A DNA stretch of 57,820 nucleotides, taken from Synergistaceae bacterium. GTDB lineage: Bacteria > Synergistota > Synergistia > Synergistales > Aminobacteriaceae. Position numbers and translations under genes: made by a program. The notes under the pieces are model-generated. The model made no database searches. It saw only the letters and a program-made list of their open reading frames with translations, and was not told where the DNA came from. The DNA is taken from assembly GCA_017446055.1 (NCBI GenBank), contig JAFSRQ010000066.1, positions 1-57,820 of the forward strand, written 5' to 3'. Shown one piece after another: positions 3,653-53,368 of the stretch. How positions within the stretch are numbered: the stretch's first letter is position 1; the number at the start of each line of letters is the position of its first letter.

Positions 3653-3691
3653 TGTTCACATCATGAAGAAAGGAAGTTGACACAAGAGAAG

Positions 3692-4540
3692 ATGACAGCT
3701 ATAATATCCAGTCCAGTCCAGTCCAGTCCAGTCGCTGACTCTGCACATTCAACCAGCAAAGTAATCATCATCGGCAAGAATCATCATCATACACTCTCTG
3801 TAGCTAGGGTATTCGGCCTCAACGGGATAAAGCCCTATGGTATTGTCGTGGGAAAAGGCGCGAAATTCGGGTTCGTTAGGCGTTCGCGCTGCTGGCAAAA
3901 AGTTTGGGGTGTGAATGATGAAGTCGGCATGACAGAGATTCTCCGCCGCGAGTTCCAGAACGAGACACTCAAGCCCGTAGTCATTCCGTGTTCTGACCCC
4001 GAAGCAATAGCACTCGACAACAATCTTGACGAACTGAGCAAGAGGTACATTCTCGGCAGCTTCAATCACGAGCAGGGCAGAATCCCTCAGCTTATGGACA
4101 AGTTCGCGCAGGTGGAGTTCGTGAGAGACAGACTCGGCCTCGATATGGCTGAAAGTTTCATCATTGACCTTACTGGCGGAAATATCCCGGACGCTCTACC
4201 GTTCCCCTGCCTCGTCAAGCCAGTAGTCAGCGCAGAGGGCAGCAAGGGCGACATCAGGAAGTTCACCGACAAAGACAGCCTCCGTGAATATTTCGGCACT
4301 CTTAGGGCTAAGGGCTACACTAGGATTCTTGCGCAGAGGTTTCTGGATATAGATTACGAGTTCTGCCTGTCCGGGTGCTGCGGGGATATAATATCGTACT
4401 TTGTCTCAAAAACTGTCAGGGCCTGGCCTAATGTCGGGGGACTGGATGCTGGGATAAAGTCATGGATGAGCCGGAAATTCATGAACTATGTATCAATATG
4501 CTTAAGAAAATTTCTGACGCAGGGTATTCGGGACTCATAG
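3692..4540 (+). CDS. ATP-grasp protein, N-terminal part (frameshifted gene)
   Basis: The start is ATG 3692 (MTAIISSPVQSSP); the conserved fold begins at KVIIIGKNHHHTLSVARVFG, a pre-ATP-grasp Rossmann-like domain. The ATP-grasp segment LPFPCLVKPVVSAEGSKGD carries the nucleotide-binding Lys. After RAWPNVGGLDAG the frame turns into non-conserved sequence and stops at 4540. The rest of the same domain continues in another frame from about 4459, so one gene of about 420 codons is broken by a -1 shift between roughly 4442 and 4461. The N-terminus is encoded by a TCCAG repeat. Relatives ligate carboxylate to amine, often in polysaccharide or peptide modification; the substrate is unknown. Confidence 0.7.
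   Translation: MTAIISSPVQSSPVADSAHSTSKVIIIGKNHHHTLSVARVFGLNGIKPYGIVVGKGAKFGFVRRSRCWQKVWGVNDEVGMTEILRREFQNETLKPVVIPCSDPEAIALDNNLDELSKRYILGSFNHEQGRIPQLMDKFAQVEFVRDRLGLDMAESFIIDLTGGNIPDALPFPCLVKPVVSAEGSKGDIRKFTDKDSLREYFGTLRAKGYTRILAQRFLDIDYEFCLSGCCGDIISYFVSKTVRAWPNVGGLDAGIKSWMSRKFMNYVSICLRKFLTQGIRDS
3707..3731 (+). repeat. Pentanucleotide repeat TCCAG x5 within the 5' coding region
   Basis: Five perfect TCCAG units, followed by a partial TC, lie 15 nt after the chosen ATG of the ATP-grasp gene. The unit is not a multiple of three, so gain or loss of a unit shifts the reading frame. With five copies the ATG 3692 frame enters the conserved domain. Confidence 0.9.
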
Positions 4541-4953
4541 ACATAGAGTTATTTAAGGCCGGGGACAAGATATACTTATGCGAAATCAACTGGCGGGACA
4601 GCGCAAGAGTCTTCATGTGCAAAGGGACAAAAGTATACTATCCATTGATTTGGTATTACTCGGTTACAGGCCAGGACGATAAGATTCACGGTCTCCCTCT
4701 CACCACAAAGGACACATCGCAGTACGGAATGTGCGAGCAGGTCGACATACGCCACGTTTTTCACTCCGAACCCGGCTTCCCGCGCATCAATCTCCGTGAA
4801 TGGCTCGGCGATGTCAGGAAGGCACAAAGTTTCGCGTACTGGCATAATGACGACAAGCTCCCGGCGTTGTGGAGTTACCCGAAAGATTTTGTCTCAGCCA
4901 TTCTCCCGCATTCCATGAAAGATTTCATCAAGCGCATAATCGGCAGGAAGTAA
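4462..4953 (+). CDS. ATP-grasp protein, C-terminal part (frameshifted gene)
   Basis: The frame opening at ATG 4462 encodes 163 aa and completes the preceding gene: MDEPEIHELCINMLKKI, then GYSGLIDIELF and YLCEINWRDSA, the metal-binding Glu/Asn strand of ATP-grasp enzymes. It overlaps the upstream ORF by 79 nt in another frame. No ribosome site stands before ATG 4462, so independent expression is doubtful. A single-base deletion, a sequencing error, or -1 slippage at the A-AAG at 4456-4459 would each explain the break. The conserved residues on both sides argue the break is recent or artefactual. Confidence 0.65.
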   Translation: MDEPEIHELCINMLKKISDAGYSGLIDIELFKAGDKIYLCEINWRDSARVFMCKGTKVYYPLIWYYSVTGQDDKIHGLPLTTKDTSQYGMCEQVDIRHVFHSEPGFPRINLREWLGDVRKAQSFAYWHNDDKLPALWSYPKDFVSAILPHSMKDFIKRIIGRK

Positions 4954-21085: not shown

Positions 21086-22433
21086 CATCTTCAGCCGTTA
21101 CCGCAAGGCCATAATCACAGGAGGAGGAGTGATACTGTTCCTTCTGGCCGGGCTGATCACGATGATTTTCACGGACTCAGGGAATGAGAATGCACCCTCA
21201 AATTCTTACCTGTCAGAGTCAAATCCCCCCTCCCGAAATCATGAAGCCGCCCCGGAAATTCATCACCCCCAGCGTATCATGTATGTATACATCACTGGTG
21301 AAGTCAGGAAGCCGGGAGTCTACAAGCTCTCGGATGACGCAAGAATATTCCAGCTTGTTGACATGGCCGGGGGATTTACCGCAAAAGCTGACACTGAATC
21401 GCTCAACCTCGCCGAAAACATTTCAGACGGAAGCCACGTTCATATAGGCACAAAGTCCCAAGCAACACAGCAAGCCCCCCTGATACCCGGAATGCCCGCG
21501 AACGCCGCGAGAACTTCAGCATTAACACGAGAACAATCACAGTCAGGAATCGTAAACATCAACACAGCAGGACTAACGGAGCTTGAGACCTTGCCCGGCA
21601 TTGTCCCGGCACTGGCTCAGAGAATAGTCGACTATAGGAGCAAGAACGGAAATTTTGCCCGGCCTGAGGACCTAGTGAACGTCAAGGGTATAAGCCAGTC
21701 GAAACTAGCGCAGTTACTCCCTCACATCACAGTCATGAATACAGCCTCAAGGGTGATACTGCCGTCATCGTCAGCAGGAATAATCGACATCAACACAGCA
21801 GGACTAACGGAGCTTGAGACCCTTCCCGGTATTGTCCCGGCACTGGCTCAGAGGATAGTTGAGTACAGGGACAAGAACGGGAATTTTGCCCGCCCTGAAG
21901 ACTTGCTGAACGTCAAGGGTATAAGCCAGTCGAAACTAGCGCAGTTACTCCCTCACATCACGGTCATGAATACAGCCTCAAGGGTAATTCCGCCGTCATC
22001 GTCAGCAGGAATAATCGACATCAACCGCGCATCACAAACGGAGCTTGAGACCTTGCCCGGTATCGGCCCGGCACTAGCTCAGAGGATAATCGACTACAGG
22101 AATACTCACGGAAATTTTGCCCGGCCTGAAGATTTGGTGAAAGTCAAGGGTATAGGCCAGTCGAAACTAGCGCAGTTACTCCCTCACATCACGGCCATGA
22201 ATACAGCCTCAAGGGTGATACTGCCGTCATCGTCAGCAGGACTAATCGACATCAACCGTGCATCACAGAAGGAGCTTGAACGACTGCCCGGTGTCGGTGC
22301 GGTAACAGCAAAACGCATAATCGACTACAGGAATACTCACGGCAAATTCACGACAGCCGAAGACCTGACGAACATACGCGGAATAAGCCGGGCTAAACTG
22401 GATAACATGCGCGGCATGATAGCAATACGCTGA
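21078..22433 (+). CDS. comEA: ComEA-like DNA-binding protein with four tandem helix-hairpin-helix units
   Basis: 451 aa: one N-terminal membrane anchor (AIITGGGVILFLLAGLITMIF), a spacer, an SLBB-type domain (YVYITGEVRKPGVYKLSDDARI), then four (HhH)2 units beginning IVNINTAGLTELETLPGI, IIDINTAGL, IIDINRASQ and LIDINRASQ. Each unit is 77 aa (231 bp) and is joined by nearly identical linkers containing MNTASRVI and PSSSAG. Ordinary ComEA has one such unit. It should bind incoming double-stranded DNA outside the inner membrane and hand it to the comEC product encoded 1 nt later (TGATG overlap). Confidence 0.93.
   Translation: MNDIFSRYRKAIITGGGVILFLLAGLITMIFTDSGNENAPSNSYLSESNPPSRNHEAAPEIHHPQRIMYVYITGEVRKPGVYKLSDDARIFQLVDMAGGFTAKADTESLNLAENISDGSHVHIGTKSQATQQAPLIPGMPANAARTSALTREQSQSGIVNINTAGLTELETLPGIVPALAQRIVDYRSKNGNFARPEDLVNVKGISQSKLAQLLPHITVMNTASRVILPSSSAGIIDINTAGLTELETLPGIVPALAQRIVEYRDKNGNFARPEDLLNVKGISQSKLAQLLPHITVMNTASRVIPPSSSAGIIDINRASQTELETLPGIGPALAQRIIDYRNTHGNFARPEDLVKVKGIGQSKLAQLLPHITAMNTASRVILPSSSAGLIDINRASQKELERLPGVGAVTAKRIIDYRNTHGKFTTAEDLTNIRGISRAKLDNMRGMIAIR
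21550..22433 (+). repeat. 231-bp tandem repeat inside comEA
   Basis: Equivalent positions recur at 231-bp steps (for example CAACACAG at 21560 and 21791, CAACCG at 22022 and 22253). Units 1-3 are about 21550-21780, 21781-22011 and 22012-22242; the fourth (22243-22433) lacks the linker. The units are nearly identical over long stretches, so unequal recombination could change copy number in frame. Confidence 0.9.
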
Positions 22434-23864: not shown

Positions 23865-23899
23865 CACTATCCACTAGCCACTACCCTCTAGCCACTACT
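23865..23899. repeat. Decayed heptanucleotide repeat between comEC and guaB
   Basis: Five 7-nt units (CACTATC, CACTAGC, CACTACC, CTCTAGC, CACTACT) run from 23865 to 23899 and enter the guaB stop codon. They differ from each other, so the array is old compared with the perfect heptamers elsewhere in the window. An imperfect inverted repeat (AGTGAATAG/CTATCCACT) overlaps its start. Confidence 0.65.
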
Positions 23900-43643: not shown

Positions 43644-46289
43644 CTAGTTGTTGGGACTCGTGTTGTAGGTAACTGCTGCCTGGCCGTATTTGTACAGAGC
43701 GATTACAGCCTGCTTGAGTTTGCTGAGGGTGTAGCCGTCCGTTGCCTTGTTGTCGTCGCCGCTTTGTGAAAGAACGCTGTGAACGTATGAGTAGCCTGAC
43801 ACTGAAACTGTGCAAGTCTCTGCCTCATCGCCAGTGCCAGCTGTAAGTACGATTCCCTTTGCTGTGCCGAGAAGGTGCGCAGGGATGCCGCCGGTATTAA
43901 TGGTGTAGACGTTATCGGCATTCTTCACGGGATTGTTTGTGAGTGCTGTACCGTCTATTGTGGCTGTAACGGTATCCGCCTGTCCTGTGTAAGGAACGTT
44001 AAGCTCAATCTCTACTTCGTCATCGAGGAGGAGCGAGTATGTTACTTCGCCGAAGCTGGAGTTCTCTGCTTTCGAGCGTGTTATCGTGATTTTGTTGGTA
44101 CTGAGTGTATTGGCTGTCACATCATTAACAGTGATTTCCGCGTCATCTGATTTCGTTATGGCTTTGTGCGCGTTAGTCTCCTCATCACCGATAGTCCAGC
44201 CGTGATAGTCTGCGAGGCTCTGCTGTGCGTAATAGCCGTAATCCTTGATGGCTTTCGCGAGTGCTATCAAGTTAGCCGATGCACCGCTTCCATCTGCCAG
44301 AACCGCATCCAGGTACTTAACAGCCGAGAAACTATCAGTATCGCCTTCTACAGTGAAAGGTTCAGGGCCATCGCCTACATTAGCACCTTGTGCATTGGCC
44401 GCTGTGTAATTAAGTGTGGCGGTGATTTCGTCTGCCATCTGCACGGAGGTTATGCGGCAAGTGAACCTGTGGAACGTGTCAGTGTAATCGGGATGCGTAT
44501 ATTCGGCATGATCTACCGTATCGCTGACTGTTACCGTCTGTTCCTCATCACCAATCTTGAAGGTTACCGAGCAGTCCTCAAAGCCTGTCTCCGGGATGTA
44601 CGCATAGAAGTCCACGCCGATTAGTCCGCCAAGCGCGAGGGAGTGTATGGTCTTGTCGTCTTTCTTGAAGAACTCGGGCTTATTCTCAGAAGGAGTGTAT
44701 GCTGTTTTCGTGCTGGTAGTGGCATAAGTTGCGGTATATGTGCGGTCAGCTACTACTTCACCATTGTTGATTGTTACGGTCGTTTGTGCCTCCTCAGAGC
44801 CTCCCTCAAGCTTCCAGCCCGCGAAGGTGTAGCCATCGTTTGGTGTGGGTGTAGGCAGGGTGAATGTTGCTGACTCAACGGTGAATGTCGCGGTATATTT
44901 TTTCTCGTCACTGCCGTCCTTAGTGAAGCTTCCCGTCTCAGAGAGTGTTCCATTATCGCCAAGGTTCAGCGTGATGGTGTAGTCTGTTGCTGTCCATGCC
45001 GCTGTGAGGGTTACGCCAGCCATTAATTGAGCCTCTGTTAATGTTGTAGCGTTATCATCAGTAGCAAAGACGAAATCTGTATTGTCTAACTGCCACACTA
45101 CAGAAGAGTAATAATCTCTGGTTGGGTCTTCTGGTTTGGTGGCTATCGTTGCGCTCTTGCCATATTCCACTTCAACCTCTACCGTCTTAGTGGACTCAGT
45201 CTCCCACTTGCCTTCACCTGCATTGAACGTTACAGTGTAGCTAGTCTTGCCGTTGGTATACGTCTTGTCGCCGATAGTTACCTTCCCGCCTGCGAGTGTC
45301 AGCGTCCCGGCCGTAATGCTCTGTGCGGTGAGTGTGCCGACATTGTCCCCTTCGGTACTCTGGGAGTATATGGTGAGAGTCTTGCCGGTTGCGGTGATGG
45401 ATTTGTCGGTGAGAGTCAGCTTTGCGCCATCAAGAAGAATTATGCTTATGTTATCAGCGGTTAGTGCAAGGTCAGCATTGAGTGTTACCTCGCCATACAC
45501 AACGTAAGCCGCTTTACCAAACTCACTTGTTGTTGCCGTGAGTAACTCATAGTCATCGGGTAAAGCCGCATCGTTTTCACCGTTTTTGTAGCTGCCGAAG
45601 ACCGCCGTGTAGGTTGCGTTTGCGTTGTTATCTGACTTGGGGAATTTGATTGCGTCTTCGTCCAAGATTGTAGCATCCTCGCCTGTCTTCCAGCCCAAAA
45701 ACGTGGCATACTCTTTCGTGAGCGTGGGCAGGGAAAATTCGGTGGTCTTGTGCGTGTACGTAACCGTAGCAGAGTTGTCCGTAACAGTTACTGTACTATC
45801 TCCTGCTGTTATGGAAGCATTATCGGGAACATTATTGAGTGTGAGCGTGTACGTCCAGTTGGCATAGTAGGCTGTACCATCTGTTGCATCAGTGGGAATG
45901 TAAGTCTCACTATTAGTTGCCTCAACTTTGTTCGTTAACGCGGCTTCTGTATACCAGCCCTCTAACGCGGTGGCATTGTCATTTGTGGTTGTGGGGAATT
46001 TGTAGTTATTTGTAACACTATCTGAGAAAGTCAGCTTGTACTCTGAGCCTGGGGTTGTTTCCTCAATCTTGGGATCGGTTTCACTACCATTACTAGTTGT
46101 GATAGTGCCGCCGTTCGTGTGGAGAGTGATAGTTACAGCCTGTGCCTGTGGGACAATGAACGAGAGAAGGAATACTGCGATCAGTAGCGCGAGAAGTCTT
46201 AGCTTGCCTGTCAGAAGGCCACAACTAAGGCTGTGAGCTGTGAGCTGTGAGCTGTGAGCAGTTATAGCAAACTTTTGCCATAATGTCAA
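43644..46289 (-). CDS. Secreted InlB-repeat surface protein, possibly phase-variable
   Basis: 881 codons if read from TTG 46289. A signal peptide (LRLLALLIAVFLLSFIVPQAQA) follows the repeat-encoded TAHSSQLTAHS. The mature part is beta-rich, with InlB B/Listeria-Bacteroides repeat units (YTITLNLGDNGTLSETGSFT..., FAGWKLEGG; FNAGEGKWETES) and a C-terminal domain ending LKQAVIALYKYGQAAVTY as in gut Firmicutes surface proteins. It uses more A/T-ending and Thr/Asn codons than its neighbours, hinting at acquisition. The well-placed ATG at 46281 is out of frame because of the GCTGTGA repeat; TTG 46289 has its AAAGGA only 1 nt away. Confidence 0.8.
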   Translation of the reverse strand: MTLWQKFAITAHSSQLTAHSLSCGLLTGKLRLLALLIAVFLLSFIVPQAQAVTITLHTNGGTITTSNGSETDPKIEETTPGSEYKLTFSDSVTNNYKFPTTTNDNATALEGWYTEAALTNKVEATNSETYIPTDATDGTAYYANWTYTLTLNNVPDNASITAGDSTVTVTDNSATVTYTHKTTEFSLPTLTKEYATFLGWKTGEDATILDEDAIKFPKSDNNANATYTAVFGSYKNGENDAALPDDYELLTATTSEFGKAAYVVYGEVTLNADLALTADNISIILLDGAKLTLTDKSITATGKTLTIYSQSTEGDNVGTLTAQSITAGTLTLAGGKVTIGDKTYTNGKTSYTVTFNAGEGKWETESTKTVEVEVEYGKSATIATKPEDPTRDYYSSVVWQLDNTDFVFATDDNATTLTEAQLMAGVTLTAAWTATDYTITLNLGDNGTLSETGSFTKDGSDEKKYTATFTVESATFTLPTPTPNDGYTFAGWKLEGGSEEAQTTVTINNGEVVADRTYTATYATTSTKTAYTPSENKPEFFKKDDKTIHSLALGGLIGVDFYAYIPETGFEDCSVTFKIGDEEQTVTVSDTVDHAEYTHPDYTDTFHRFTCRITSVQMADEITATLNYTAANAQGANVGDGPEPFTVEGDTDSFSAVKYLDAVLADGSGASANLIALAKAIKDYGYYAQQSLADYHGWTIGDEETNAHKAITKSDDAEITVNDVTANTLSTNKITITRSKAENSSFGEVTYSLLLDDEVEIELNVPYTGQADTVTATIDGTALTNNPVKNADNVYTINTGGIPAHLLGTAKGIVLTAGTGDEAETCTVSVSGYSYVHSVLSQSGDDNKATDGYTLSKLKQAVIALYKYGQAAVTYNTSPNN
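46230..46257 (-). repeat. Heptanucleotide repeat GCTGTGA x4 in the signal-peptide region
   Basis: Four perfect 7-bp units (plus-strand GCTGTGA; coding strand TCACAGC) lie in the first codons of the InlB-like gene, followed by a partial GC. Each unit gained or lost shifts the frame by one. Losing one unit would put ATG 46281 in frame with the signal peptide and mature protein. Confidence 0.92.
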
Positions 46290-46322
46290 GTCCTTTCTTG
46301 TTTTGGGATTTTTGATGCACGG

Positions 46323-46351
46323 ATTATAGCACGGTATTCATTCTTTGGGAA
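46323..46351 (-). promoter_or_regulatory. Predicted promoter of the InlB-like gene
   Basis: On the minus strand TTCCCA (46351-46346), 17 nt, then TATAAT (46328-46323) preceded by TGC, an extended -10. The start region at 46281-46289 is about 35 nt downstream. Confidence 0.65.
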
Positions 46352-53247: not shown

Positions 53248-53317
53248 ACGCCGAACGCCGAACGCCGAACGCCGAACGCCGAACGCCGAACGCCGAACGC
53301 CGAACGCCGAACGCCGA
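53248..53317. repeat. Heptanucleotide repeat ACGCCGA x10
   Basis: Ten perfect 7-bp units fill 53248-53317, in the 181-nt space between ribE and the GT-D gene, ending 60 nt upstream of the GT-D start on its transcribed strand. Nothing else (no hairpin terminator, no ORF) is seen in 53188-53368. Confidence 0.95.
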
Positions 53318-53368
53318 ATTTTACAGAACAATTCATGAAGTGTCAATCCTTTCTTCGAGATGTGAACA

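Follow-up and report, generated by a model that had tools for sequence, protein, structure and literature searches.

A surface-protein locus with a heptamer array at 46230, in the window (the whole stretch of 57,820 nt of DNA analysed here), and a family of similar cassettes spread over the same genus very probably form a slippage-driven translational on/off switch. We infer switching and start use from the arrangement of the elements. A first promoter, P1, would give an mRNA bearing AAAGGA and a start codon, and a ribosome starting there, upstream of the array, would translate through the heptamers. As seven leaves a remainder of 1 on division by three, the unit count would set whether translation enters the frame of the surface protein or meets a stop. 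The sequenced four-unit allele would be OFF from ATG 46281, and alleles of three or six units would be ON. In a second class of cassettes, where the array lies in a small leader ORF, its phase probably governs translational coupling to the next gene. The cassettes share the features of translational simple sequence repeats (SSRs): a unit length not divisible by three inside the 5' end of an ORF, a Shine-Dalgarno (SD) sequence and a start codon upstream, units free of stops on the sense strand, and coding bodies mostly without another start.

The locus lies on the minus strand. It opens with the predicted extended -10 promoter element P1 (TGCTATAAT, 46323..46331), followed by the Shine-Dalgarno-like AAAGGA (46291..46296), a TTGACA box (46284..46289), an ATG 9 nt past AAAGGA (46279..46281), a TATAAC box (46261..46266) and, after 1 nt, the putative slippage site, a (GCTCACA)4.3 array identified by repeat detection (46230..46259). 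The two boxes are the -35 and -10 elements of a predicted promoter, P2 (TTGACA-N17-TATAAC), which by sequence is a near-consensus sigma70 promoter and whose spacer contains the ATG. This succession of TTGACA at TTG 46289, 17 nt and TATAAC before the array was absent from the initial annotation. Translation from ATG 46281 in the present allele gives MAKVCYNCSQLTAHSSQP and then a stop, i.e. 18 codons (46225..46281). The body of the surface protein (43644..46229, defined by its ORF, Pfam and homologues, with the gene-frame stop at 43644) has 861 codons and lacks a usable start, the earliest in-frame one being codon 177. It begins with a signal peptide (about 46229-46137), and its C-terminal region is common to homologues in 11 of the 43 genomes of the genus. 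The only Pfam domain found was PF09479 (Listeria-Bacteroides repeat, Flg_new/List_Bact), and the combination of leucine-rich repeats, B repeats and a GW or other anchor that marks the internalin InlB did not emerge from the Pfam search of this protein. Of the earlier label 'InlB-like', the Flg_new/List_Bact repeat hit is the one supporting feature.

The initial annotation had proposed that ATG 46281 follows AAAGGA at a normal distance and runs into a stop after 18 codons, which we confirmed base for base (the gap is 9 nt), and that the frame of the surface protein opens first at TTG 46289, 1 nt past AAAGGA, which is also correct. Its arithmetic holds too: loss of one heptamer or gain of two places ATG 46281 in frame. 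In computed alleles of three and six units this ATG yields 876 and 883 aa, respectively, against 18 aa with four units, and five units are also out of frame. Three near-identical 5' ends occur in the window's genome, with 4, 5 and 4 units, and all are OFF, which counts against the switch. The array at 46230-46259 is not a chance occurrence, because nearly identical 5' ends are found at two other loci of the genome and because the 856 kb made up of the window and 40 stretches from its genome and one congener hold only 22 perfect 5- or 7-mer arrays with 2.8 copies or more.

An alternative is constitutive expression of the surface protein from TTG 46289, whose frame is indeed open in the present allele, with the array as an inert relic. 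This opening is, however, merely the case of n = 1 modulo 3. Moreover, the TTG is only 1 nt from AAAGGA and belongs to a conserved -35 box, and its equivalent in the paralogue on contig C114, which has five units, is out of frame as well and gives only 23 aa. Constitutive expression from this codon thus seems very unlikely to us. We rejected TTG 46289 as a genuine start on the grounds of its spacing, the -35 box and the five-unit paralogue; what had been described as a weak start is better read as the TTGACA of the embedded promoter.

Searching the window's genome with the 301 nt around the 46281 start retrieved GCTCACA arrays with TTGACA/T-N17/18-TATAAT before unrelated genes. P2 is shared by all six exact GCTCACA arrays of this genome and by nearly all arrays in congeners. 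We discarded the possibility that the heptamer itself is a mobile or conserved signal, since GCTCACA arrays occur in many phyla without P2 and the genus uses 43 free units. In Streptococcus, (GCTCACA)17-22 arrays directly follow AAAGGA/ATG (MNAITAHSSQLTAHS...) without P2 (L067:1001-1133, L073:5325-5478 and L116:2020-2138); these are apparently convergent frame switches that use the same heptamer.

An unbiased scan of the 856 kb for all perfect tandem arrays of at least 2.8 copies and periods 4-12 revealed a P2 with a score of at least 10/12 next to 4 of 4 pentamer and 16 of 18 heptamer arrays, but next to none of the 24 arrays of other periods and at only 39 of 20,000 random positions. A third species gave a similar picture over 400 kb, with P2 at 10 of 15 pentamer or heptamer arrays and at none of 12 arrays of other periods. 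Three sister genera, over 574 kb, yielded no heptamer array and a single pentamer array, which lacks P2. We counted more than 130 occurrences of the pattern AAAGGA-N0-6-TTGACA-N17/18-TANAAT, spread over 31 of the 43 congeneric genomes (a single occurrence for the reversed-pattern control); outside the genus it is present in 3 of 90 genomes taken as a sample of the phylum's other genera. The cassette is a genus trait, and arrays of 5 and 7 bp belong to a single defined design specific to this genus. The window's genome has at least 19 cassettes, including the 46230 locus. At one further place (L237, around 3790-3720 on the minus strand), AGGA-TTGACA-N17-TATAAT is kept with only about two imperfect heptamers, before a signal-peptide protein with its own start; by its sequence we take this to be a decayed cassette.

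The pooled loci comprise 93 distinct cassettes. Of their 43 repeat units, 33 are heptamers and 10 pentamers; the period is 7 in 80 cassettes and 5 in 13. The order of elements is an extended -10 P1, AAAGGA, a start codon, the array, and then either the gene itself, fused to the array, or a leader ORF that runs up to the start of the following gene. The pool was selected at a P2 score of at least 10, partly with the AAAGGA pattern, and its values for P2 and SD depend on this choice; for P2, the unbiased evidence comes from the two array scans above. The selection bears on the perfect AAAGGA found in 80 of the 93 cassettes, part of which were collected with AAAGGA in the pattern, and on the P2 hexamers, which hold about 2 bits per position except at the third position of the -10 (spacer positions hold 0-0.7). 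In 46/93 cassettes, the stretch 11-44 nt upstream of the SD holds a perfect TATAAT of P1, compared with 5% in shuffles. The P2 spacer contains a start codon that is open to the end of the array in 89/93 cassettes, compared with 62% for shuffled spacers. This start is mostly 9-10 nt from AAAGGA; in cassettes of the CGCACAT family the distance is long, 16 nt. Stops are found on the sense strand in none of the 43 repeat units and on the antisense strand in 13. Relative to the last base of the -10 box, the array begins at -2 to +1 nt in 86 of the 93, an arrangement of the hmwA type. Arrays have a median length of 5 units, and switching rates could be low as a result. A conserved motif, gCC.TAaTTaTgcCC, stands right after the arrays whatever the downstream gene (information of 7.3 against 4.7 in shuffles). 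We tried a hairpin between the SD/TTGACA region and this motif, which was unsupported, the duplex energy being -9.0 for the cassettes' own partners and -9.65 for swapped ones.

The cassettes feed two classes of output. In the fused class (49 cassettes), one frame runs from the array into a long ORF, and most of these bodies have no in-frame start for 16-178 codons. For 16 of the 49, the best-placed start shares this frame, and for the other 33 it does not (16 ON : 33 OFF). In the leader class (43 cassettes), one frame of the array-bearing ORF stops close to the start codon of the following gene, between -5 and +13 nt from it, in 35/43 cases, against 41% of background genes (p=1.4e-6); ATGA is the commonest overlap. 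The present frame is the coupling frame in 9 of these 35. Leader cassettes are in this respect like lex2, with a repeat-bearing ORF that ends at the next start in one frame; the 46230 locus is not. This class suggests that a switch can precede a gene without altering its protein, with phase variation acting via translational coupling. Across both classes, 25/84 cassettes (30%) are ON, which is not different from the one third expected for random phase (p=0.56) and indicates that the phase is drifting, not fixed.

Array length also differs between related loci. We compared paralogues and homologous loci of related species, and found 6.1 versus 4.6 units between flanks 95.5% and 89% identical; other pairs have 10.1 versus 3.3 and 13.6 versus 8.6 units. 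The unit sequence itself differs between homologous loci as well. Nine cassettes sit within 90 nt of the beginning of their contig and turn the array towards its edge (e.g. G000:C7:33-68, G004:C83:20-55 and G043:C136:25-62); none has the opposite orientation. Arrays at contig edges are expected if they vary within the population or defeat assembly. It is important to highlight that contigs of metagenome-assembled genomes (MAGs) often end inside arrays, and array-borne surface genes are consequently systematically broken or missing in assemblies.

The window itself contains other cassettes and repeats. The second cassette, on the minus strand, is AAAGGA-TTGACA-N17-TAAAAT with an ATG at 53336 (53318..53352); it is followed by a (TCGGCGT)10 array found by repeat detection (53248..53318) and, as a member of the leader-ORF class, by a glycosyltransferase of GT-D fold (PF08759, 52276..53187). 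The third, on the plus strand, is AAAGGA-TTGACA-N17-TATAAT with an ATG at 3692 (3669..3705) and a (TCCAG)5.4 pentamer array (3707..3733). It is ON, with ATG 3692 in frame for 282 aa. Its gene is open from ATG 3692 to 4540 (+) and apparently continues in another frame in the ORF 4462-4953; it looks as if it were split by a frameshift near 4440-4470, through mutation or assembly error. A degenerate heptamer array at 23865-23898 (CACTAGC x4.7, 80% matches) has no clear promoter and is possibly a decayed cassette. Finally, a 231-bp unit is present in about three tandem copies at 21556-22348 and encodes a repeated helix-hairpin-helix-like sequence (INTAGLTELETLPGIVPALAQRI...).

The genes behind the cassettes include GT2, GT8, GT1/4, GT61 and GT-D glycosyltransferases, sugar-phosphate transferases, MBOAT and other acyltransferases, FkbM methyltransferases, ATP-grasp sugar-transfer enzymes and surface proteins. 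Most belong to the glycosyltransferases, acyltransferases or surface proteins. As a control, we took 77 background ORFs, which are housekeeping genes with none of the cassette-gene families among the commonest. The products are thus surface-exposed or surface-modifying, as in contingency loci. The initial annotation had read the surface gene as such a locus, and several patterns in these genomes speak for this view: the 93 cassettes, their stop-free units, the one-third phase, the differences between arrays, and genes of the contingency type.

What the frame switch leaves without a place is P2, and this counts against a pure frame-switch model. Transcripts from P2 would, by the position of its boxes, start inside the array, without SD and start codon; they would give no protein in the fused class and would bypass the switch in the leader class. 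A reading that gives P2 a role is that it is the real promoter, that the array is an untranslated 5' leader or initially transcribed region whose length tunes the transcript level, and that AAAGGA and the ATG, lying upstream of the transcript, are irrelevant. Nearly every cassette has a near-consensus P2 whose -10 adjoins the array, and in hmw1A and hmw2A of nontypeable Haemophilus influenzae a heptamer SSR overlaps the -10 box of a functional P2 and precedes a surface adhesin (PMC8262952). Yet fused-class bodies lack a start of their own, the first in-frame one often being deep inside, as at codon 177 of the 46230 locus, and for this reason we rejected P2 as the only promoter of an untranslated array in this class. 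Nor does length tuning need the absence of sense stops in 43 units, the enrichment of starts in the spacer or the P1 boxes upstream. We find it improbable as an account of the cassettes.

Among the near-consensus promoters of the 856 kb, 23/42 are in cassettes, with arrays or contracted arrays. The arrays, which adjoin a -10 box almost without exception, might be an unselected mutational by-product of initiation at strong promoters. However, the other 19 of these 42 promoters are ordinary ones and have no array, and arrays are found only together with SD and start, stop-free in sense and before surface-modification genes, which makes a by-product hardly credible. Possible roles of P2 are to increase slippage, to interfere with or pause transcription from P1, or to provide basal expression. 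In particular, P2 might be a dedicated destabiliser: open-complex formation and initial transcription would melt the first units and raise slippage, with no useful mRNA made. We regard this last idea as speculative and rather unlikely. If true, it would be a built-in, transcription-driven mutator that places the mutation rate of contingency loci under transcriptional control, possibly tying switching to growth or sigma-factor activity. Copy number does not track P2 strength (Spearman rho -0.10, p=0.33). The cassettes raise the question of why almost all of their arrays adjoin the -10 of a near-consensus promoter that yields only untranslatable transcripts.

Searching the literature for phase variation in Synergistaceae and for heptamer switches in rumen MAGs brought up nothing relevant, and no account of such a cassette in this family. 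Frame-switching SSRs, 5- and 7-mers included, are well known in surface-modification genes of H. influenzae (PMC2651432). The cassettes resemble the in-ORF SSRs of H. influenzae and Neisseria (lic, mod, the hsdM pentamer) in that a unit not divisible by three near the 5' end sets ON or OFF through the frame (PMC2651432). They differ from these SSRs, which are mainly tetranucleotides, in their 5- and 7-mers of at least 43 sequences, their fixed position and their embedded consensus promoter.

The leader class resembles lex2A-lex2B of H. influenzae, where a small repeat-bearing ORF precedes a glycosyltransferase gene whose expression follows that ORF. The repeat there is the tetranucleotide GCAA at a single locus, and we know of no embedded promoter in this system. 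For an array at the -10 box, hmw1A/hmw2A is the nearest precedent. However, the hmwA array belongs to the 5' UTR of the productive transcript, where its copy number tunes the level of expression (PMC8262952), whereas the array of the cassettes is inside an ORF and phase would be what varies: SD and start are upstream of it, and it is open in all frames. Furthermore, hmwA is one locus pair, and the cassettes number about 20 loci per genome. Beggiatoaceae and other phyla carry heptamer arrays of TAACTGA ahead of their genes, and these were proposed to be a protein-binding site (PMC4679880). Many heptamer arrays near start codons in one genome are common to both systems, but TAACTGA is a single conserved and untranslated heptamer, while the genus of the window places no constraint on the unit sequence and it is the frame that matters. 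The type of switch is already known, and what is new is the embedded promoter, the genus-wide cassette and the leader-coupled class. With about 20 loci in each genome, the cassettes probably amount to a large standardised phase-variation system of uncultured Synergistaceae from animal guts.
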